DNA from: Methyloversatilis sp.
GTDB taxonomy: Bacteria > Pseudomonadota > Gammaproteobacteria > Burkholderiales > Rhodocyclaceae
Assembly: GCF_030698125.1 (NCBI RefSeq)
Contig: NZ_JAUYNV010000006.1
Span: forward strand, 1 to 64,000
Length of the DNA stretch: 64,000 nucleotides
Direction of reading: 5' to 3'
In this document: positions 3,218 to 37,284 of the stretch, in pieces
How the letters are laid out: each line of letters starts with the position of its first letter
How positions within the stretch are numbered: position 1 is the stretch's first letter
Made by a program: the position numbers and the translations under genes
Notes under the pieces: generated by a model
What the model was told of the DNA's origin: nothing
Databases searched by the model: none
What the model saw: the letters and a program-made list of their open reading frames with translations, nothing else

Positions 3218-4045
3218 CTAGATCAACTTTTCCCTGGCGTTCGTGATCTTCTTCAGCGGCTGGTTGCGCGGGCTGTTGCTCAGCAGCGGAACGTCGGTGT
3301 GGGCATCGTCCCAGGTCGGGTCCTCGATGCTGTCGAACACGTCGCGCAGCTTCTGGCCCCAGGTGTTGTGCAGCATGCGGAAGTAGGGGTTGTCGTTGTC
3401 GATGCAGGTGATCTTGTCGGACTGCAGCTGGTTGGCCTCGTACACCACCAGGTCCAGCGGCAGGCCCACCGACAGGTTGGACTTGAGCGTGGAGTCCATC
3501 GACACCAGCACGCACTTGGCGGCCTCGTCCAGCGGCGTCTCAGGGGCGATCACGCGGTCGAGCACCGGCTTGCCGTACTTGGACTCGCCGACCTGGAAGA
3601 ACGGCGTCTCGGTGGTGGCTTCGATGAAGTTGCCGGCCGAATAGACCTGGAACAGGCGCATGCCCTCGCCCTGGATCTGGCCACCGAAGATCATGGACAC
3701 GTTGAACTCCACGCCGGCGCGCTGCAGCGAATCGCCGTCGCGCTCGTAGACGTGGCGCACCGCCGAGCCGAGCACGCGCGCGGCGTCGAACATGCTTCTG
3801 GCGTTCCAGATCGTGATGGGCTCGCCGCCGTCGACGTCCTGCAGCTGCTCGACCTGCAGGATCTCGCGCACCGACTGCGAGACGCTCAGGTTGCCGGCCG
3901 AGAGCAGGCACATGAAGCGGTCGCCCGGCTTCTCGTAGACGATCATCTTGCGGAAGGTGCTGATCTGGTCCAGGCCTGCGTTGGTGCGCGAGTCGGAGAG
4001 GAAGACCATGCCGGCGTTGAGCTTGACGGCGACGCAGTAAGTCAT
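3218..4045 (-). CDS. Anbu-type proteasome/HslV-like peptidase
   Basis: 275 residues. It starts '[22 protein letters not shown]', so removal of Met1 exposes Thr2, the Ntn-hydrolase nucleophile; the Asp in 'SDSRTNAG' sits where proteasome beta subunits have theirs. This pattern matches the Anbu family (COG3484 type), self-assembling proteasome-like proteins distinct from HslV. Anbu is usually found with a transglutaminase-like and an ATP-grasp gene; here it is instead overlapped with mutS (ATGA, 4042-4045) and followed by a hydrolase. The coupling implies co-translation with MutS. Proteolytic targets are unknown. Confidence 0.8.
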
Positions 4046-6696
4046 GATGAAGAGGCCAGTTTTTTCAGGGTGTAGAGCTGTTCCAGCGCTTCGCGCGGGC
4101 TCAGGGTGTCGGGGTCGATCTGCGCCAGCGCGGTCTGCAGCGGGTGGGTCTCGGGCTCCAGTGTGGCAGGTGGCGGGGCGAACAGGTCCACCTGGCTGCG
4201 GCTTTCTTCGCTCTGGGCCTCCAGCGCGGCCAGGGCGTGGCGCGCATGCTGCACCACGCCGGCGGGCACGCCGGCCAGGCGCGCGACCTGGATGCCGTAG
4301 CTGCGGCTGGCCGGGCCGGGCTCGATCTGGTGCAGGAACACGATGCCGCCGGCCTTGCCCCCGGCCTCGACCGCGCTCACGTGCACGTTCACCGCGGCGT
4401 GGTGGCTGGCGGGGAACTCGGTGAGCTCGAAGTAGTGGGTGGCGAACAGCGTGAAGGCGCGCGACCTGTCGTGCAGGTGGGTGGCGATGCCGCCGGCCAG
4501 CGCCAGGCCGTCGAAGGTGGAGGTGCCGCGGCCGATCTCGTCCATCAGCACCAGGCTCTCGGGCGTGGCCGCGTGCAGGATCTGCGCCGCCTCGGTCATC
4601 TCCACCATGAAGGTGGACTGCGCGTTGGCCAGGTCGTCGGCCGCGCCGATGCGGGTGTGGATGGCGTCGATCGGCCCGAGCCGGCACGAGCTGGCGGGCA
4701 CGAAGCTGCCCATGCTGGCCAGCAGCACGATCACCGCGACCTGGCGCATGTAGGTGCTCTTGCCGCCCATGTTGGGGCCGGTGATCACCTGCATGCGCTG
4801 CTTCGGGCCGAGCACGGTGTCGTTGGCGATGAAGCCGCCGCCGCTGGTCTCGTTCAGGCGCGCCTCCACCACCGGGTGGCGGCCGCCGCGGATGTCGATG
4901 CAGGGCTCGGCCACGAACTGCGGCGCGCACCAGTTCAGCGTGAGCGAGCGCTCGGTGAGGGCACACAGCGCGTCGAGCGCGGCCATGGCGCGCGCCAGCC
5001 GCGTGAGCGGCGCCACGAAAGCCTGCAGCTCGTCGAGCAGGTGCTCGTACAGCCATTTCTCGCGCGCCAGCGCGCGGTCCTGCGCCGAGAGCGCCTTGTC
5101 CTCGAAGGCCTTGAGCTCGGGCGTGATGAAGCGCTCGGCGTTCTTCAGCGTCTGGCGGCGGCGGTAGTCTTCGGGCACCTTGGACGCCTGGCCCTGCGTG
5201 ACCTCGATGTAGAAGCCGTGCACCTTGTTGAACTGCACGCGCAGGTTGGCGATGCCGGTGCGCGCGCGCTCGCGCTGCTCGAGTTCGATCAGGAAAGCGT
5301 CGCTGTGGGTCTGGATGCCGCGCAGCTCGTCGAGCTCGGCGTCGAAGCCGTCGGCGATCACGCCGCCGTCGCGCACCAGCGCGGCGGGTTCGGGCAAGAG
5401 GGCGTCGCGCAGCAGGGCGGCGCAGCCCTCGGGGGGCGTGAGGTGCTGGCCGATGCCGTGCAGCAGGCCGCCGGCCTCCTGCGCGCCGAGCTGGTGGGCC
5501 AGCTGCTGCGCGCGCTCCAGTGTCTGGCCCAGGCCGACCAGCTCGCGCGGCTTGACCTGGCGCAGCGCGGTGCGCGCGGTGATGCGCTCGACGTCGCTCG
5601 CGCCCTTGAGCGACTGGCGCAGGCTTTGCCACAGGCCACCACGCAGGGTGTGGATGGCGGCCAGCCGCGCGCGGGCTTCTGTGCGGTCGCGCCGGGGCTC
5701 CAGCAGCCAGCTGCGCAGCGCGCGGCTGCCCATGCCGGTGCAGCAGACGTCGAGCAGCGAGAACAGCGTGGGGCTGGTCTCGCTGCGCAGGGTCTGCACG
5801 AGTTCGAGGTTGCGCCGGGTGTTGAGAGGCAGGTCGATGCGCTCGCCGCTGCGCGCCACCTGCAGGCTGGACACGTGGGTGAGGGCGCGGCCCTGGGTGT
5901 GCTCGGCGTAGTTCAGCAGCGCGGCGGCGGCGGCGTGCGCGTCGGGCATGTCCTGCGCGTCCCAGGCAGCCAGGCTCGCGGCCTGCATCTGCTCCAGCAG
6001 CTTGCGCTGGCCCAGCGCGGCATCAAACGCCCAGGCCGGGCGCAGCACCGCCACCAGCCGACCGCCGTTGTTGCCGGCCTGGCCGGCCAGCGATTGCACG
6101 TGTTTCTCGAACGCCGGCGTGGCGTCGGCGCTGTAGAGGATTTCGCCGGGCGCCACGCGCGCCACCCAGTCGGCCAGCTCGTCGCTGGCGCACTGCGCCA
6201 GGAACACGATGCCCTGCGTGACCGACATCCAGGCCAGGCCGCAACCGGTGCGCGCGCCCGGGTGCACGGCCATCAGCACCGCCTCGGTCTTGTCGGACAG
6301 CAGCTCGCTGTCGGTCAGCGTGCCGGGCGTGACCACGCGCACCACCTTGCGCTCCACCGGCCCCTTGGCCGTGGCCACGTCGCCCACCTGCTCGCAGATG
6401 GCGACCGATTCGCCCAGCTTGATCAGGCGCGCCAGATAGGTGTCGACGGAATGGAAGGGCACGCCGGCCATCACCACCGGCTGCCCGCCCGACTGGCCGC
6501 GCTGGGTCAGCGTGATGTCGAGCAAGCGCGCGGCCTTCTCGGCGTCGCCGAAGAACACCTCGTAGAAATCGCCCATGCGGTAGAACAGCAGCGTGTTCGG
6601 GTACCCGGCTTTAAGTCCGAAGTACTGCTGCATCATGGGGGTGTGCAGGGACAGGTCCGCAAGCGCGCCGGGCTGGGGAGAGGAATCCTGACTCAT
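4042..6696 (-). CDS. mutS: DNA mismatch repair protein MutS
   Basis: 884 residues, close to the family's ~855-890. MutS recognises mismatches and small loops and, with ATP, recruits MutL. The N-terminal mismatch domain carries '[10 protein letters not shown]'; the C-terminal ATPase carries Walker A 'GPNMGGKST' (about residue 640), Walker B '[12 protein letters not shown]' and the 'THYFEL' segment. I chose ATG 6696 ('[10 protein letters not shown]') because the conserved '[11 protein letters not shown]' follows it; an upstream in-frame extension to 6861 has no family character. Glu is mostly GAG (6 of the first 7), unlike the genes from hoxG onward. The nearest upstream gene is divergent hoxK. 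Confidence 0.97.
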
Positions 6697-16583: not shown

Positions 16584-17034
16584 AGTGCGGGTGCGGAGGC
16601 CCTATCGCGGGCAGGGCCCGCTCCGGGGGTGGGGCGGGCAGAAAGGAACAGGTGTTTTGGGTGAATGCGCATGAGCTTCTCCGTGTGCGGTTTCTCAATC
16701 CCTCTCCCGCATCAGCGGGAGAGGGTGGCGCGCAGCGACGGGTGAGGGCTGCGGCGTTTGCTCCCTCACCCCCGGCCCCTCTCCCGCTGATGCGGGCGAG
16801 GGGAGAAGGGCGATGCGGTGGTGGGGTGGAACGGTTTTCGCAGGAGCCTGCCCCGCAGGCGATTCGGTGGTGGATGAACGCAGGCGCGGATTCGGAGGCC
16901 CTATCGCGGGCAGGGCCCGCTCCTGCGAAGGGCGATGTGGCGGTGGGTTCACAGATCGACATGCCGGAGGACGACGCGGCGGTGGCAGGAATGGATCACC
17001 CGGCACAGACCGGGTAACGAAGGAGGAGATCGAT
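16584..17034. repeat. REP/BIME-like repeat cluster between hypA and hypB
   Basis: No gene. A 30-bp unit (starting GGAGGCCCTATCGCGGGC) occurs at 16595-16624 and identically at 16894-16923; it resembles proteobacterial REP sequences (GCGGGCAGGGCCCGCTCC core). An inverted partner TTCGCAGGAGC at 16837-16847 pairs with GCTCCTGCGAA at 16919-16929. Two further hairpins share the CCTCTCCCGC arm: 16700-16725 (perfect 11-bp stem) and 16776-16803. These would fold strongly in RNA and could attenuate or stabilise parts of the operon message. Confidence 0.85.
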
Positions 17035-31382: not shown

Positions 31383-32036
31383 TCAGCGCCGGCGGCGGCT
31401 CAGGGCGCCCAGTGTGATCAGGCCCGCGATGGCCAGTACCCAGGGTTGCGGCTCCGGTACCGGCGCCAGCACGATGCCCGGATAGAAGGCGTTCTGTTCC
31501 GGCGCGCCGAAGATGGGCAGCAGCCCATAGGGCGAGGTCGCTGTCGCGACAGTGGGGTTGTCATCTACCGTCGCACTGATCAGCGTCAGTTCGAGACGCA
31601 TGCTGTCGAACTTGAGACCGGCGTCGAGCGTGATGGTATTGGTACCGATATGGACGGACGAATTCACCACATCTGCCGCCGTTTCGCTGAATACCTCGGT
31701 CGCGTCGTTATAGAGCGTGAGCATGTAGTTCACGGTACGGTCGCCGGGTTCGCTGACGCCGAAGGCCATCAGCGGAAAGAAATCGCCCGATGCGACCACT
31801 TCCCAGTAACGATCGTCGACGATGGACAGGGTCCAGACGAAGGTGTCGCCGTCGTAGAGCACGGTGCCGTCCGGATCGTCGCTGCCGGCGGCAAGAGTGG
31901 CCACACCGGCGCCTTCATAAAGCACGTCGAATGTGTAGTTCGCCGCGTGGGCAGCCGGCGCAAGCGCCAGACCGCCGATCAGCGCGGCCAGCGCGACGCA
32001 GCGATGAAACGGGGTGCTCGTTGAGTGAATAGCCAT
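31383..32036 (-). CDS. PEP-CTERM sorting domain protein of unknown function
   Basis: 217 residues: signal peptide 'LALAPAAHA', a beta-rich Asp/Thr-rich secreted domain, and the C-terminal 'VPEPQPWVLAIAGLITLGALSRRRR' type signal (PEP motif, hydrophobic helix, Arg cluster) for exosortase processing. The start is set by AGGAAGGAAAG upstream of 32036. It is the only minus-strand gene in the hydrogenase locus and separates hoxB from hoxC, which are adjacent in the Ralstonia order. Function unknown; PEP-CTERM proteins usually go to the outer surface or exopolysaccharide. Confidence 0.85.
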   Translation of the reverse strand: MAIHSTSTPFHRCVALAALIGGLALAPAAHAANYTFDVLYEGAGVATLAAGSDDPDGTVLYDGDTFVWTLSIVDDRYWEVVASGDFFPLMAFGVSEPGDRTVNYMLTLYNDATEVFSETAADVVNSSVHIGTNTITLDAGLKFDSMRLELTLISATVDDNPTVATATSPYGLLPIFGAPEQNAFYPGIVLAPVPEPQPWVLAIAGLITLGALSRRRR

Positions 32037-32299
32037 GTCGTTCTTTCCTTCCTCGGGCGATGGACACACATCCGGTCGGTCGTGGCCGGACATGTCATGA
32101 ACGTGCGCGAAGGCACGCCAGCGACAGCAACTTCTCTAAAAGCAGGGATCGCGCCAGAATCGGCGCGTCGACGGCGGATGCCACAGCCGACGGCGGATAC
32201 AGGGCGAACTGGCTCGTCGCCGTCGGCAGGTACCGACGCAGCGCGGCGTCGCGGTGTAAAGCGTGTCGACAGTTGCTGCACGTTCTTCAGGGAGGTTTC
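32037..32299. other. 263-bp divergent gap between PEP-CTERM gene and hoxC
   Basis: Holds the PEP-CTERM promoter and RBS leftward and the hoxC leader rightward. Two copies of GACGGCGGAT (near 32169 and 32189) and an inverted CGCGCC/GGCGCG pair (near 32146-32165) are present; no clear sigma-54 element was found. Confidence 0.5.
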
Positions 32300-33754
32300 A
32301 TGACCCGCCTCCTCGTCGGCCCCTTCAATCGCGTCGAGGGCGATCTCGAAGTCACGCTGGACATCGCCGATGGTCGAGTCGCGTCGGCGCACGTCAATGC
32401 GCCGATGTACCGCGGTTTCGAGCAGATCCTGCGCGGGCGCGAGCCGCATGACGCGCTGGTGTATGTGCCGCGCATCTGCGGCATCTGTTCGGTGTCGCAG
32501 TCGGTGGCGGCGGCGCGGGCGCTGGCCGCGCTCGGCGGTATCGCGATGCCGGCCAACGGCCAGCACGTGACCAATGTGATCCTCGCCACGGAAAACCTGG
32601 CCGATCACCTGACCCACTTCTACCTGTTCTTCATGCCGGACTTCGTGCGCCCGGTGTATGCCGACCGGCCCTGGCATGCCGAGGCGGTGCGCCGCTTCAC
32701 GCCGCAGAGCGGCGAACAGGTGCGCGCCGCGATCGCCGCGCGCCAGCGCTGGTTCACATTGCTCGGCACATTGGCCGGCAAGTGGCCGCACACGCAGAGC
32801 ATCGACCCCGGCGGTTCGACGCGCGCCATCGACGCGGCAGAAAAGGTGCGCCTGCTGGCGCGCGTGCGCGAGTTCCGCCGCTTCCTCGAAACCCGCACCT
32901 ATGCCGCGCCGCTGGAACAGGTGGCTGCACTCGATTCAGAGGCGGCGCTCGATGCCTGGCATGGCGGCGCCGATCCGCTGAACGGCGACCTGCGCTTTTT
33001 CCTGACCGTCGCGCGCGATGCGGGGCTGGCCACACTCGGCGCCGGGCCCGGTCGCTTCATGAGCTACGGCGCCTATCCGCAGCCGGACGGCGGCACGGCG
33101 CTCGGGGCCGGCGTGTGGCGCGCCGGTACGCTGTCGCCGCTCGACCCGGCCGCCATCCGCGAAGACGCCACCCACGCCTGGCTGAGCGACGCCGGCGGTC
33201 CGCAGCATCCGCACACCGGTGTCACGCGGCCGGAGCCGGACAAGCCCGGCGCCTACACCTGGAACAAGGCGCCGCGGCTGGCCGGCGAGGTGGTCGAAAC
33301 CGGCGCCGTTGCGCGTCAGCTGGCGAGCGCTCATCCGCTCATCGTCGACCTGGTCGGCCGTTACGGCGGCACGGTCTACACCCGCGTCGTCGCCCGCCTG
33401 CTCGAACTGGCGCGCGTGGTGATCATGATGGAAGACTGGCTGCGCGCAGTGCGGCCGGGCGAGCCCTTCTGCACGCCGGGCCGGCTGCCGGACGAAGGCA
33501 GCGGCGCCGGCCTCGGCGAAGCGGCGCGCGGCAGCCTGGGGCACTGGGTTTCGGTGCGTGATGGCCGCATCGCCAACTACCAGATCGTCGCGCCCACCAC
33601 CTGGAACTTCTCGCCGCGCGACGCCGCCGGCCGGCCCGGCGCGCTGGAAGCTGCGCTCGAAGGCGCGCCGGTGCGCGACGGCGAAACGACGCCGGTGGCG
33701 GTGCAGCATATCGTGCGATCCTTCGATCCGTGCATGGTGTGTACGGTGCACTGA
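32300..33754 (+). CDS. hoxC: Regulatory (H2-sensing) hydrogenase large subunit HoxC/HupV
   Basis: 484 residues. L1 is 'RICGICSVSQSVAAAR' with Gln after CSVS instead of His, as in H2 sensors, and the chain ends exactly at 'DPCMVCTVH', so there is no cleavable tail, another hallmark of group 2b. CAGGGAGGT 4 bp before ATG 32300 fixes the start; 263 bp precede it, so it may have its own promoter. Its last 42 bp plus the stop are duplicated 2 kb downstream (35720-35766). Confidence 0.95.
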   Translation: MTRLLVGPFNRVEGDLEVTLDIADGRVASAHVNAPMYRGFEQILRGREPHDALVYVPRICGICSVSQSVAAARALAALGGIAMPANGQHVTNVILATENLADHLTHFYLFFMPDFVRPVYADRPWHAEAVRRFTPQSGEQVRAAIAARQRWFTLLGTLAGKWPHTQSIDPGGSTRAIDAAEKVRLLARVREFRRFLETRTYAAPLEQVAALDSEAALDAWHGGADPLNGDLRFFLTVARDAGLATLGAGPGRFMSYGAYPQPDGGTALGAGVWRAGTLSPLDPAAIREDATHAWLSDAGGPQHPHTGVTRPEPDKPGAYTWNKAPRLAGEVVETGAVARQLASAHPLIVDLVGRYGGTVYTRVVARLLELARVVIMMEDWLRAVRPGEPFCTPGRLPDEGSGAGLGEAARGSLGHWVSVRDGRIANYQIVAPTTWNFSPRDAAGRPGALEAALEGAPVRDGETTPVAVQHIVRSFDPCMVCTVH

Positions 33755-33756
33755 GT
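33710..33756 (+). repeat. hoxC 3' end, left copy of 47-bp direct repeat
   Basis: Contains the codons for 'IVRSFDPCMVCTVH', the stop and two more bases. It is 45/47 identical to 35720-35766 (differences at 33718 and 33751). The two copies bracket the ATPase/TOPRIM cassette, like left and right junctions of an insertion into the 3' end of hoxC. Confidence 0.9.
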
Positions 33757-33860
33757 TCGAGCAACTGCGCGACGCCAGGTCCGCAGCGCACATCGAGCCA
33801 GCGGCGTGTGAGCCGCAGCGAGTTTGGCTGCCGGGGCGGGCACCCCGTCTGGACGACCTT

Positions 33861-33870
33861 ACGGTACCGT
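33861..33870. promoter_or_regulatory. 10-bp palindrome upstream of the AAA ATPase gene
   Basis: Perfect ACGGTACCGT, 40 bp before the ATG at 33911 in the 154-bp gap after hoxC. Possible operator for the cassette; no clear -35/-10 pair seen. Confidence 0.3.
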
Positions 33871-33910
33871 ACGGGCTTTCTTCGAGTGCCATTCACAGGC
33901 GGCTCCAGTC

Positions 33911-35098
33911 ATGAAAATCGAATCCATACGCCTTAAGAATTACAAGGTGTTCCGCGATGTGCATCTGAAAGACATTCCGTCTTTTCTGGTCGTGGTCGGC
34001 GCCAACGGCTCGGGAAAATCGACCTTGTTCGATGTGTTCGGCTTCCTGCACGACTGCCTGAAAGGCACCGTGCGTCAGGCACTGGACAAGCGCGGTCGTT
34101 TTCGCGAAGTGTTGAGTCGTGATGCCGAGTCGGACACCATCCTTATCGAAATCCAGTACCGCATGTTGATTACCGGCGTGGAGCGCCTGGTGACCTATTC
34201 GCTGGAAATCGGTGAGCAGGATGGTTCTCCATTCGTGCAACGCGAGTTGCTGCGCTACAAGCGGGGACGTTACGGCAGTCCGTTTCATTTTCTCGATTTC
34301 GCGGTCGGCGAAGGCTTTGCTATCACCAACGAAGAGGACTTCAACAAGGCCGATGAAGATCTCGAGCGCGAATTCCAGAAGGTCAATCCCGATACATTGG
34401 CGATCAAGGGGCTGGGTCAATTCGAGCGCTTCAAGGCTGCGAATGCGTTCCGGCAGTTGATCGAGTCCTGGCATGTATCGGACTTTCACATCAGTGCCGC
34501 ACGCGGTCGCAAGGAAGCGGCGGGAGATTCCGAACATCTTTCAGAGACTGGCGATAACCTGCCGCGCGTGGCGCAATACCTGTTCGAGCAGCATCCGCAG
34601 ACTTTCCAGCGCATTCTGGAAACAATGACCCGGCGCGTGCCTGGCGTGGCTTCGGTCGAGCCACGTCTGATGGACGATGGGTATCTCACGCTGCGCTTTC
34701 AGGACGGGTCGTTCAAGACGCCGTTCCTCGATCGCTATGTGTCTGACGGCACCATCAAGATGTTCGCCTATCTGGTGCTTCTGCATGATCCGACGCCACA
34801 CCCCTTGTTGTGCGTCGAGGAGCCGGAAAACCAGCTCTATCCGAAGCTGATGGCCGAACTGGCCGAGGAGTTCCGGCTGTACGCCTTGCGTGGCGGACAG
34901 GTGCTGGTGTCCACGCATTCGCCGGATTTTCTGAATTCGGTCGGTCTGGACGAGGTGTGCTGGCTGGTCAAGCGCGGTGGCGGGACTGAAATTCGCCGTG
35001 CCCGCGATGACGCGCAGATTGCCGCGTATATGGCAGAGGGCGACCAGATGGGGTACCTGTGGAAGCAGGGCTTCTTCGAGGGAGCCGATCCCGAATGA
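33911..35098 (+). CDS. AAA family ATPase (ABC/SMC-like, AAA_21 type)
   Basis: 395 residues. 'IESIRLKNYKVFRDVHL' and Walker A 'GANGSGKST' (30-38) open the fold, a divergent insert follows, and the end holds Walker B 'LLCVEEPENQLYP' and H-loop 'VLVSTHSPDFLNSV'. This is the RecF/SMC-like ATPase group that occurs as the ATPase of OLD, PARIS, AbiL/RloA and retron-associated defence systems. Its stop overlaps the next start by 4 bp. Codon choice (more TTC/TTT, GAT and A/T third bases) is visibly less GC-biased than the hydrogenase genes, suggesting transfer. No RBS is obvious at 33911. Confidence 0.85.
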   Translation: MKIESIRLKNYKVFRDVHLKDIPSFLVVVGANGSGKSTLFDVFGFLHDCLKGTVRQALDKRGRFREVLSRDAESDTILIEIQYRMLITGVERLVTYSLEIGEQDGSPFVQRELLRYKRGRYGSPFHFLDFAVGEGFAITNEEDFNKADEDLEREFQKVNPDTLAIKGLGQFERFKAANAFRQLIESWHVSDFHISAARGRKEAAGDSEHLSETGDNLPRVAQYLFEQHPQTFQRILETMTRRVPGVASVEPRLMDDGYLTLRFQDGSFKTPFLDRYVSDGTIKMFAYLVLLHDPTPHPLLCVEEPENQLYPKLMAELAEEFRLYALRGGQVLVSTHSPDFLNSVGLDEVCWLVKRGGGTEIRRARDDAQIAAYMAEGDQMGYLWKQGFFEGADPE

Positions 35099-35688
35099 AG
35101 GAGTTGGTATTCCTGCTGGAAGAAGCGTCGGCGGGTGCGATGCTGGAAAGCCTTCTGCCGCGCATCCTCCAGCCGGGTATCCGGCACCGCTTGATTGTCT
35201 TCGAGGGCAAGCAGGATCTGGAGAAGCAACTGCATCGACGTCTGCGCAGCTATCTCAATCCGCAGGCTCGCTTCATTGTCCTGCGCGATCAGGACTGCGC
35301 GCCCGATTGCGCGACAGTGAAGGCGAAGCTGCTCGACATTTGTCATCATGCCGAGGCGGCGGGAAGGGCGCTGGTCAGAATTGCCTGCAAGGAGCTCGAA
35401 GCCTTTTATCTCGCAGATCTTCACGCTGTGGAGCAAGCGTTGGGTGTCACGAAGCTGGTATCCCGCCAGGGTAACGCACTGTTCCGCAGTCCCGACCGGC
35501 TTGGAAATCCAAGCAAGGAACTGGAAAAGCTGACTTCGGGCTTGTACCAGAAGGTGAGTGGATCACGCGCAATCGGTGAATGGCTCGATCTCGCCAACGA
35601 ACGCTCGCCCAGCTTCAGGAATCTGGTCGCCGGTATCCGGCGAATGGAAGCGGAGTTGCTCGTGCTTCCGGGTTCATCCGACGCTTGA
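35095..35688 (+). CDS. TOPRIM-like DUF4276-type protein, partner of the AAA ATPase
   Basis: 197 residues. 'ELVFLLEEASAGAMLESLLPRIL' (acidic Glu9/Glu10) and 'FIVLRDQDCAPDC' (Asp65, Asp67) reproduce the Glu...Asp-x-Asp arrangement of TOPRIM nucleases and of DUF4276 proteins; 'ACKELEAFYLADLHAVEQA' (quoted in full) is also typical of the latter. Overlap with the ATPase gene implies a complex. By analogy with PARIS and OLD-type pairs I infer an anti-phage or stress-triggered nuclease module, untested. Followed by the hoxC remnant. Confidence 0.75.
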   Translation: MKELVFLLEEASAGAMLESLLPRILQPGIRHRLIVFEGKQDLEKQLHRRLRSYLNPQARFIVLRDQDCAPDCATVKAKLLDICHHAEAAGRALVRIACKELEAFYLADLHAVEQALGVTKLVSRQGNALFRSPDRLGNPSKELEKLTSGLYQKVSGSRAIGEWLDLANERSPSFRNLVAGIRRMEAELLVLPGSSDA

Positions 35689-35719
35689 GGTGTCGACGCG
35701 TCGTGCGCATCCGCGCGAC

Positions 35720-35766
35720 ATCGTGCGGTCCTTCGATCCGTGCATGGTGTGTACGGTGCATTGAGT
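35720..35766 (+). pseudogene. Duplicated 3' end of hoxC (right copy)
   Basis: Encodes 'IVRSFDPCMVCTVH' and a stop (35762-35764) in frame but with no hoxC sequence before it. 45/47 identical to 33710-33756. Probably the displaced original end of hoxC or the far junction of the inserted cassette. Confidence 0.85.
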
Positions 35767-35796
35767 GCGTGGGCGGGACGCGGGGCGCATCGGATC

Positions 35797-35868
35797 GCGC
35801 CATATCCCGGTTGGCGCGATTTCCCGTTTTGTGCCAATATAGTGGCGCGATAATTGAATTGCGCCACT
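35797..35868. promoter_or_regulatory. Clustered inverted GTGGCGC-type half-sites upstream of fic gene
   Basis: Half-sites GCGCCA/TGGCGC occur at 35798-35803 and 35812-35817, a near match GTGCCAA at 35831, and a perfect AGTGGCGC-N12-GCGCCACT at 35841-35868, just 3 bp before the ATG at 35872. A GATAAT (-10-like) at 35849-35854 lies in the spacer, so binding would block transcription. The encoded protein has its own winged-helix segment and could be the repressor. Confidence 0.55.
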
Positions 35869-35871
35869 GAA

Positions 35872-37284
35872 ATGACCCGGCCCCGCTCGTCCATCGATCC
35901 GCACACGCTTGCCGCACAGATCGCCCGCCATCCGGAAGGCATCGGTGTGGACGGGTTGCTGCGCGCGCTGGGCGAGGGCGTGGCGCGACGCACGCTGCAG
36001 CGGCGGCTGGCCGAGCTGGTCGCGCAGGGCCGTGTCCTGACGCGCGGCGAGGCGCGGGCGCTGAAGTATTTCCCGGCGCCCGCCGGCGCCGCGCTGGCGG
36101 CGATGGAGCCCCTGCCGGCCGCCGCCCCGGCCCCCTATGTGACGCTGTCGGCCGAGGGTGCCGAGCTGCGCGATCTGGTGCGCCGGCCGCTGCATCTGCG
36201 TCGCCCCGTCGGTTACGACATCGGCTTCGTCGAGCGTTATCGCGCCAATGACACCTTCTATCTGCCGGAGCCGCTGCGCGCGCAACTGCACGTGCTCGGC
36301 CGCTCACCGGTCGGCGAAGCGGCGGCGGGCACCTTTGCCGGCGACATCCTGAACCGGCTGCTGATCGACCTGTCCTGGGCCTCGTCGCAACTGGAGGGCA
36401 ACACCTATTCGCGGCTCGATACCGAACGCCTGATCGAACTGGGCGAGATCGCCGAGGGAAAGGACGCGCTCGAAACGCAGATGATCCTGAACCACAAGGC
36501 GGCCATCGAGTACCTGGTGCATGGCGCGGGTCGCATCGGCGTCGATCGTGAAACCCTGCTGTCGCTGCACGCGCTGCTGTCCGACGGGCTGCTGCGCGAT
36601 CCGCAGGCCGGTGGCCGGGTGCGCAGCCGGGCGGTCGAGATCAGCGGCTGCGTGTACCGGCCGCTGGCGATGCCGCAGCCGCTCGACGAGCTGTTCGGCA
36701 TCGTCACCGACATCGCCGCCGACATCCTCGACCCGTTCGAGCAGGCCTTCTTCCTGATGGTGCATCTGCCCTATCTGCAGCCGTTCGAGGACGTGAACAA
36801 GCGGGTGTCGCGGCTGGCCGCCAACATTCCGCTGATCCGCACCAATCTGTGCCCGCTGTCCTTCATCGACGTGCCGCAGCAGGCCTATGTGGATGCGATG
36901 ATCGCGGTCTACGAGCTGAACCGCATCGAGCTGCTGCGCGACGTGTTCGTCCAGGCCTACGCCCGCTCGTGCCAGCAATACGTGGCGGTAAAACAGCAAC
37001 TGGTGCCGCCCGACACCTTCCGCCTGCGCCATCGCAAGGCGCTGACCGAAGCGGTGCGCGCCATCGTGCTGGGCGGGCGGCCGGCCAGCGCGGCGACGGC
37101 ACACGAGACGACGCCGGCCGGTGTGGCGGCGGCCGATCGGGCGCGCTTCGTCGAACTGGTGCTGCAGGAGTTCCGCTCGCTGCACGAGGGCAATGCGGTC
37201 CGCTTCGGCCTGCGACCGCTGGAATTTGCCGACTGGCTGGCCACGAACGGCGGGTCGATCGATACGACCTCATCGGAGTCATGA
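35872..37284 (+). CDS. Fic-family protein with winged helix and degenerate active site
   Basis: 470 residues. Residues ~1-65 form a wHTH ('RRTLQRRLAELVAQGRVL'). The Fic core contains the inhibitory-helix motif 'SSQLEGNTYSRL' and, where AMP-transferring Fic proteins have HPFx(D/E)GNGRxxR, the sequence 'QPFEDVNKRVSRL' (Gln303). The catalytic His is therefore Gln and both loop glycines are changed, so AMPylation is unlikely; this variant seems to define its own subfamily. A DNA-binding or nucleotide-sensing regulator is plausible. Starts without an RBS close to the inverted repeats; nikR begins 1 bp after its stop, so the two form an operon. Confidence 0.85.
   Translation: MTRPRSSIDPHTLAAQIARHPEGIGVDGLLRALGEGVARRTLQRRLAELVAQGRVLTRGEARALKYFPAPAGAALAAMEPLPAAAPAPYVTLSAEGAELRDLVRRPLHLRRPVGYDIGFVERYRANDTFYLPEPLRAQLHVLGRSPVGEAAAGTFAGDILNRLLIDLSWASSQLEGNTYSRLDTERLIELGEIAEGKDALETQMILNHKAAIEYLVHGAGRIGVDRETLLSLHALLSDGLLRDPQAGGRVRSRAVEISGCVYRPLAMPQPLDELFGIVTDIAADILDPFEQAFFLMVHLPYLQPFEDVNKRVSRLAANIPLIRTNLCPLSFIDVPQQAYVDAMIAVYELNRIELLRDVFVQAYARSCQQYVAVKQQLVPPDTFRLRHRKALTEAVRAIVLGGRPASAATAHETTPAGVAAADRARFVELVLQEFRSLHEGNAVRFGLRPLEFADWLATNGGSIDTTSSES

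Follow-up and report, generated by a model that had tools for sequence, protein, structure and literature searches.

A HEC-01 candidate defence pair behind hoxC in Methyloversatilis sp. and the gene-end repeat around it, a probable scar of one-ended recombination

Why should the end of a hydrogenase gene be found on both sides of a pair of defence-like genes? The question is raised by a stretch of 64,000 nt from Methyloversatilis sp. (contig NZ_JAUYNV010000006.1 of assembly GCF_030698125.1; hereafter the window, its source genome being G000), in which a two-gene module, encoding an ATPase and a DUF4276 protein, follows hoxC, and the last codons of hoxC reappear on the far side of the module. 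Two observations carry our answer: the pair is inserted after hoxC at a site that is empty in those relatives that were examined, and the hoxC tails on its two sides are of different alleles, with ancestry changing at this junction. We put the probability at about two in three that the pair, which by its profile matches belongs to the candidate defence family HEC-01, was acquired through one-ended homologous recombination that left the second gene end as a scar. The features on which the argument draws are as follows.

32300–33754, forward strand: hoxC, large subunit of a NiFe hydrogenase, intact (Pfam NiFeSe_Hases, 1.2e-76)
33710–33756, forward strand: repeat copy 1, the last 14 codons of hoxC, the stop codon and 2 bp
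33757–33910, forward strand: leader of the insert, 154 bp
33911–35098, forward strand: AAA/ABC-type ATPase of HEC-01 (PADLOC PDLC04144, 1.7e-228; Pfam AAA_21/AAA_15)
35095–35688, forward strand: DUF4276 protein, a predicted TOPRIM nuclease with E9, D65 and D67 (PADLOC PDLC04143, 2e-86; Pfam DUF4276, 2.4e-13)
35689–35719, forward strand: right end of the insert, 31 bp
35720–35766, forward strand: repeat copy 2, a hoxC tail of the type seen in the relative G012, joined to the relatives' fic upstream DNA
35854–37284, forward strand: Fic-family gene, open reading frame counted from the first TTG (Pfam Fic, 4.7e-9)

The direct repeat (33710–33756 and 35720–35766) is identical at 45 of 47 positions, or at 47 of 50 when extended to 33759 and 35769, and its initial 45 bases are the last 14 codons of hoxC (42 bp) and the stop, just as the preliminary description of this locus had reported; within these 45 bases the copies differ at two, and one codon earlier copy 1 has CAT instead of CAC. 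Exact 20-mer direct repeats occur at two places in the window, the one at hoxC being the longer (32 nt exact versus 31); the other consists of 31 identical bases at 16594 and 16893, with a spacing of 299 bp. The two genes fill 1778 of the 1963 bp separating the copies and overlap by ATGA, the start codon of the DUF4276 gene overlapping the stop of the ATPase gene. Their codon use is less GC-biased than that of their surroundings (GC content at third codon positions of 0.71 for the ATPase and 0.68 for the DUF4276 gene, against 0.87–0.91 for hoxC, hoxB, fic and nikR). The insert holds only these two genes, neither of which is an integrase or recombinase, and ARAGORN found no tRNA in the window. 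On codon use, on the missing integrase and on the intactness of hoxC, which is borne out by its Pfam match, the preliminary description thus stands. The hoxC product is presumably of the "regulatory" hydrogenase subtype.

Comparison with related strains, which had been proposed as a way to find the empty site, does reveal it. Orthologues of hoxC, 84–96% identical, are present in 11 of the 12 other genomes of the genus (G008 has no hoxC match), and all eight genomes in which the junction was examined have a single hoxC tail and no insert. In five of these (G012, G001, G010, G004, and G005) hoxC is followed by the region upstream of fic, and in three (G003, G011, and G007) by nikR; G002, G006, and G009 have hoxC with different sequence behind it. 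The junction 3′ of hoxC seems to be a variable site. The Fic-family gene that separates hoxC from nikR is likewise accessory, being present in five and absent from three of the eight relatives. The relatives' alignment resumes at 35718, two bases ahead of copy 2, and it is copy 2, not copy 1, that borders native downstream DNA. Only one of the 12 other genomes, G009, encodes a full-length relative of the ATPase, at 62% and on a contig other than that of its hoxC, and the 154-bp leader has no match in any of the 12. Homology of the leader to the DNA downstream of hoxC in 17 relatives, or to the window from 35765 onward, was considered and rejected, the similarity being no higher than that of shuffles.

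Copy 2 and the two bases preceding it (35718–35764) are the G012 allele, with 0 of 47 differences; in copy 1, 2 of 45 positions depart from G012 and 2 to 5 from the tails of the ten other relatives. Identity to G012 is 96.8% over 35718–37000 versus 92.5% in hoxC, the shift falling at the insert, and in counts there are 41 differences in 1300 positions (13 hundred-base bins from 35718) against 109 in 1455 in hoxC (Fisher 5e-7), in a comparison of regions that are under different constraint. The G012-like tract spans 35718 to about 37017 and ends within fic, and nikR is nearest to G003, which has neither fic nor the pair.

The mechanism that we favour, as the most economical one, is one-ended homologous recombination: a fragment carrying the pair and one gene end would recombine within that gene, and its other end would be joined without homology; alternatively, the fragment might circularise and integrate by a single crossover. 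Integrations with one homology in E. coli mostly duplicated part of lacZ, and the passage of PMC3240628 that reports them sets them apart from true homology-facilitated illegitimate recombination (HFIR). The window shares with HFIR and with single-crossover integration the joining of foreign DNA by homology at one end; true HFIR, in the terms of that passage, involves a deletion of similar size and 3–10 bp of microhomology, whereas the window has a duplication.

The order of events at hoxC may have been either of two: the pair may have brought a new hoxC tail along, or a segment of G012 type, reaching from the hoxC tail to fic, may have been joined behind a resident pair, the second tail then being a later arrival together with fic. 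Either order would make the repeat a recombination scar, so that the pair-first order is a sub-case of our preferred explanation. We consider the pair-first order possible but rather unlikely. It agrees with the G012-like character of the tract behind the insert, which hoxC does not share, and with the affinity of nikR to a genome without fic and pair; on the other hand, it requires HEC-01 to have been behind hoxC already, and no second such genome was found, and the G012-like tract stops inside fic, which means that the segment would itself be mosaic.

Are such repeats found around the same pair elsewhere? Across 116 distinct loci, repeats above threshold were found at nine, in unrelated places, which make up eight independent sites when two Xanthomonas purD cases (L061 and L064), in which both neighbours are common, are counted as one. 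In tight windows, 7 of 84 loci (the window included) score at least 29, compared with 5 of 2000 mismatched pairs, for which the mean is 9.3; among samples by order and class, 2 of 38 loci score at least 25, compared with 1 of 600 in the null. The thresholds were picked after the scores were known, and the few high null scores presumably come from loci with homologous neighbours. The 84 loci have a recognisable partner gene and at least 60 bp on each side (16 of 100 entries without a partner were dropped, and the entry for L127 was void because of wrong coordinates and strand); the second set uses 38 of 40 loci, two being too short, and retains L190 although it has no recognised partner. Four ids are common to both sets, and L127 equals L104 and L176 equals L124, so that 118 ids correspond to 116 distinct places.

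When fake cassettes were placed at shifted positions in the same loci, 3 of 222 scored at least 20 (two of them look like tandem paralogues), versus 8 of 78 real loci. Because the window had prompted the search, it was excluded from the test, leaving 7 of 77 real loci (p = 0.0036); the figure is 6 of 76 (p = 0.010) when L051 is also excluded and 5 of 75 (p = 0.027) when L061 and L064 are treated as one event. The 27-bp repeat at L051 was not counted, since it begins 734 bp beyond the pair and looks dispersed, nor were L102 (18.5), L094 (16.0), and L002 (16.0), whose scores lie between null and threshold. A protein-level search for older scars gave no clear case beyond those found at the DNA level. 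As a further control, AbiE, an unrelated defence/toxin-antitoxin family, has strong repeats at 3 of 27 usable loci (30 fetched), a rate obtained with wider flanks and hence not directly comparable with that of the HEC-01 loci; it does mean that the flanking repeat is not special to HEC-01. At the AbiEii loci L212, L214, and L216, direct repeats of 53–71 bp lie on both sides.

The repeats themselves come from unrelated gene ends: the tail of purD (L061/L064), of hsdS (L088), and of a gene for a 1029-aa protein (L105), and the start of res (L060 and L179). At L112 and L202 the repeats are non-coding and are therefore uninformative on codon positions and alleles. None of the nine repeat-bearing loci has a perfect repeat. 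At L088, the HsdS tails, once past the repeat, are of two distinct types: there copy 1 gives 58, 55, and 46 against L072, L083, and L089 and 20 and 25 against L077 and L098, whereas copy 2 gives 16, 15, and 22 against the former three and 57 and 52 against the latter two. L179 shows in order a 5′ fragment of res, a piece reading as the C terminus of Mod, the pair, and an intact res start. Directly upstream of this res fragment and HEC-01, positions 100–1287 of L179 appear by eye to hold an ATPase-like gene and a small TOPRIM-like gene, giving the impression of a stack of two such pairs within a single type III restriction locus. Over five coding repeats, 35 differences are distributed as 11, 5, and 19 over codon positions 1, 2, and 3 (p = 0.009). 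In the best cases, then, the repeat copies look, by their sequences, like two alleles and not like one duplicated site.

These comparisons bear on a long target-site duplication, in which a staggered break of some 40–100 bp would have been filled in around captured DNA and the copies would have drifted apart. The order host, copy, insert, copy, host with its sharp borders, the variable repeat lengths, and copy 2 of purD, which resembles a decaying pseudogene, all suit such an event, and for the window itself it could have happened, given that the copies differ at two to three sites only. The lack of any perfect repeat, the match of the L088 copies to two different alleles, and the change of ancestry at the insert in the window nevertheless make it, in our judgment, an unlikely source of these repeats. 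A transposon would likewise not be expected to leave what is seen, since the loci have neither conserved ends, their DNA similarity not reaching past the ends of the genes, nor a duplication of fixed length, their repeats ranging from 33 to 98 bp and their spacings varying.

Several points weigh against one-ended recombination. No repeat above threshold is present at 107 of the 116 loci. L105 alone gives 22 of the 35 differences, and without it third positions account for 7 of 13 (p = 0.10); the purD copies of L061/L064, which lie outside that sum, have no third-position excess and fit the plain decay of one copy. In the window, the small number of differences between the copies has been mentioned, no genome turned up that could have been the donor, with HEC-01 next to hoxC, and the junction is known from one genome, a draft of 58 contigs. 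The non-homologous join shares AC alone before copy 2, and HFIR as described in the cited passage has 3–10 bp of microhomology and usually a deletion.

Could the pair instead be a site-specific mobile element, its 47-bp repeats serving as attL and attR, with an integrase acting in trans and the 3′ end of hoxC restored on entry? The gene-end position, the intact hoxC, the empty sites in relatives, and the foreign codon use would all fit, and the preliminary description had drawn the parallel to elements of this kind and suggested that the unit targets hydrogenase genes. We regard this explanation as very improbable. The insert has no integrase; elsewhere the same pair is bracketed by the ends of unrelated genes or by non-coding repeats that differ in length and in distance to the pair and whose copies, in the best examples, look like two alleles; AbiE loci have similar repeats; and by eye no conserved target site is seen across the insertions, a common core not having been formally searched. 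The pair also sits at unrelated sites without a repeat at most loci at the thresholds used, an outcome that had been named beforehand as speaking against a mobile unit of this type.

Targeting of hydrogenase genes is likewise not supported by the related loci, because the hydrogenase tail motif FDPCxxCxxH, sought in all six frames, is found at 0 of 99 of them (the best 80 of 565 relatives and 19 further loci, with L130 and L176–L202 left out, and with L066 and others holding little upstream DNA). The neighbours of the pair, named here by eye without a profile search, are of other kinds. Among the upstream neighbours a cluster of 16 is mainly HsdS-like (15 have HsdS-like tails, and L086 has a poor score), five look like type III Mod, and on the downstream side 12 look like HsdM; the pair also occurs in mod-res operons and, at other loci, behind genes reading as purD, purL, ilvA, metH, glmU, and dinG. 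Finally, an assembly artefact, a false join of hoxC with a HEC-01 contig from elsewhere, for which only the single 58-contig draft and the lack of a second example at the hoxC site could speak, is hardly credible, as both junctions lie within a 267-kb contig and have native DNA on their outer sides, the two copies can be told apart, and repeats of this sort are present in other assemblies too.

It is tempting to generalise, and we do so tentatively, rating the idea as possible but short of even odds: short gene-end repeats might be a general footprint of integrase-less defence cassettes entering genomes. A cassette would arrive on a fragment together with one end of the gene next to it, and recombination of this fragment into the same gene of a related genome would keep the gene intact and leave the second end as a scar. 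Were this true, scars could serve to date and trace acquisitions of defence genes, and it would be explained how cassettes come to be embedded in restriction operons without a recombinase of their own. The scar offers a searchable signature of how recombinase-free defence genes may spread (eight HEC-01-type sites and three of 27 AbiE loci), which would make the arrival of "embedded" defence genes testable across genomes. It also calls for caution: such a repeat on both sides of a defence cassette does not necessarily point to an integrase or to a preference for one target gene. We have met no earlier description of such gene-end scars in the literature, although our searches were not aimed well enough to exclude one. 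What deserves further work is the scar, which recurs at gene ends; there is no sign of a mobile element directed at hydrogenases.

What, then, is the pair? The ATPase matches the PADLOC model PDLC04144 with 756 bits (1.7e-228, residues 1–395 on profile positions 1–395), and the DUF4276 protein matches PDLC04143 with 286 bits (2e-86, residues 1–189 of 197), in both cases near end to end and far above other PADLOC models; PADLOC labels the two models HEC-01B and HEC-01A, respectively, and sister ATPase models HEC-01A. Because both matches are this strong, the pair is not undescribed, as had been supposed, and this locus adds one member to a known candidate family. The name HEC stands for "Hma-embedded candidate" and was given through guilt-by-embedding (PMC12988326); the passage concerned describes several HECs, including HEC-06, as antiviral and does not itself mention HEC-01. 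We found no literature on HEC-01 in connection with PADLOC, the papers holding the string "HEC-01", among those listed, being unrelated by title.

The layout of a coupled ATPase/TOPRIM module akin to PARIS and OLD, which the preliminary description had recognised, is upheld by the gene overlap and by profile and fold matches. The ATPase has the motifs that we take to be Walker A (GANGSGKS), signature (SDGT), Walker B (CVEEPE), and H-loop (STHS), and its AF2 model (pLDDT 87) matches PtuA, OLD, GajA, and SMC heads in Foldseek, with PtuA structures on top. The AF2 model of the DUF4276 protein (pLDDT 93) has as its top Foldseek match the C-terminal region of Burkholderia pseudomallei OLD (6nk8_B; E 4.2e-4, TM 0.53/0.51), and matches with E below 0.001 are limited to the two chains of that protein. 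This region is the TOPRIM domain of B. pseudomallei OLD, according to a passage of PMC10568477. A sequence-profile search of the PDB with the DUF4276 protein gave no relative, so that the assignment as a predicted TOPRIM nuclease is based on the fold and on the acidic residues, the Glu and Asp-x-Asp already pointed out in the preliminary description: Glu9, Asp65, and Asp67 are unchanged in each of the 36 DUF4276 proteins that were aligned.

Compared with known systems, the pair resembles each in part. HEC-01 relatives often sit in restriction operons, and the family was discovered in the context of Hma and other defence operons; the window pair instead lies between hoxC and fic. PARIS has the same two-gene layout, with an ABC ATPase (AriA) and a TOPRIM protein (AriB) as separate genes, but the AriA match of the window ATPase (6.6e-29), like its matches to AbiLi, GajA, and Old models, is much weaker than that to HEC-01, and the partner is a DUF4276 protein and not of AriB type, the AriB model being absent among its 16 PADLOC matches at E up to 0.1. 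The OLD family (class 1 OLD and GajA) shares the ABC ATPase and a TOPRIM-like fold with Glu and Asp-x-Asp; there, both activities reside in one chain (PMC10568477, same passage), whereas the window has two genes, and its insert has no helicase partner. Septu and retron-associated PtuA proteins are closest to the ATPase model, but PtuA partners are HNH nucleases (PtuB) or retron complexes, judging from structure titles, and the partner here is a TOPRIM-like DUF4276 protein.

By analogy, HEC-01 probably works like PARIS, since it too combines a separate TOPRIM-like protein with a PtuA/AriA-like ATPase. In PARIS, as summarised in a passage of PMC12409363, AriA keeps AriB inactive and releases it on binding of a phage protein, whereupon AriB cuts tRNA. 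The HEC-01 ATPase might accordingly act as a sensor, holding the nuclease in check until a phage trigger binds; once released, the nuclease might cut tRNA or DNA and so stop infection.

Distant relatives of the pair are also found in prophages. In E. coli, one occurs in 6 of 5426 genomes, and at the two E. coli loci that were opened (L138 and L139, positions 3672–5419) an ATPase gene and a DUF4276 gene are flanked on one side by a phage CI repressor gene and on the other by a phage integrase gene; from the gene order, we presume these prophages to be P2-like. The viral collection yielded three relatives only. A relative on a viral contig (L142) has neighbours similar to those of the E. coli prophage loci by protein comparison.

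The stretch separating hoxB from hoxC, across which G001, G010, and G004 fail to align, carries on the opposite strand (31383–32093, reverse strand) a gene for a 236-aa protein; the protein has no Pfam match, and its C terminus looks PEP-CTERM-like by eye.

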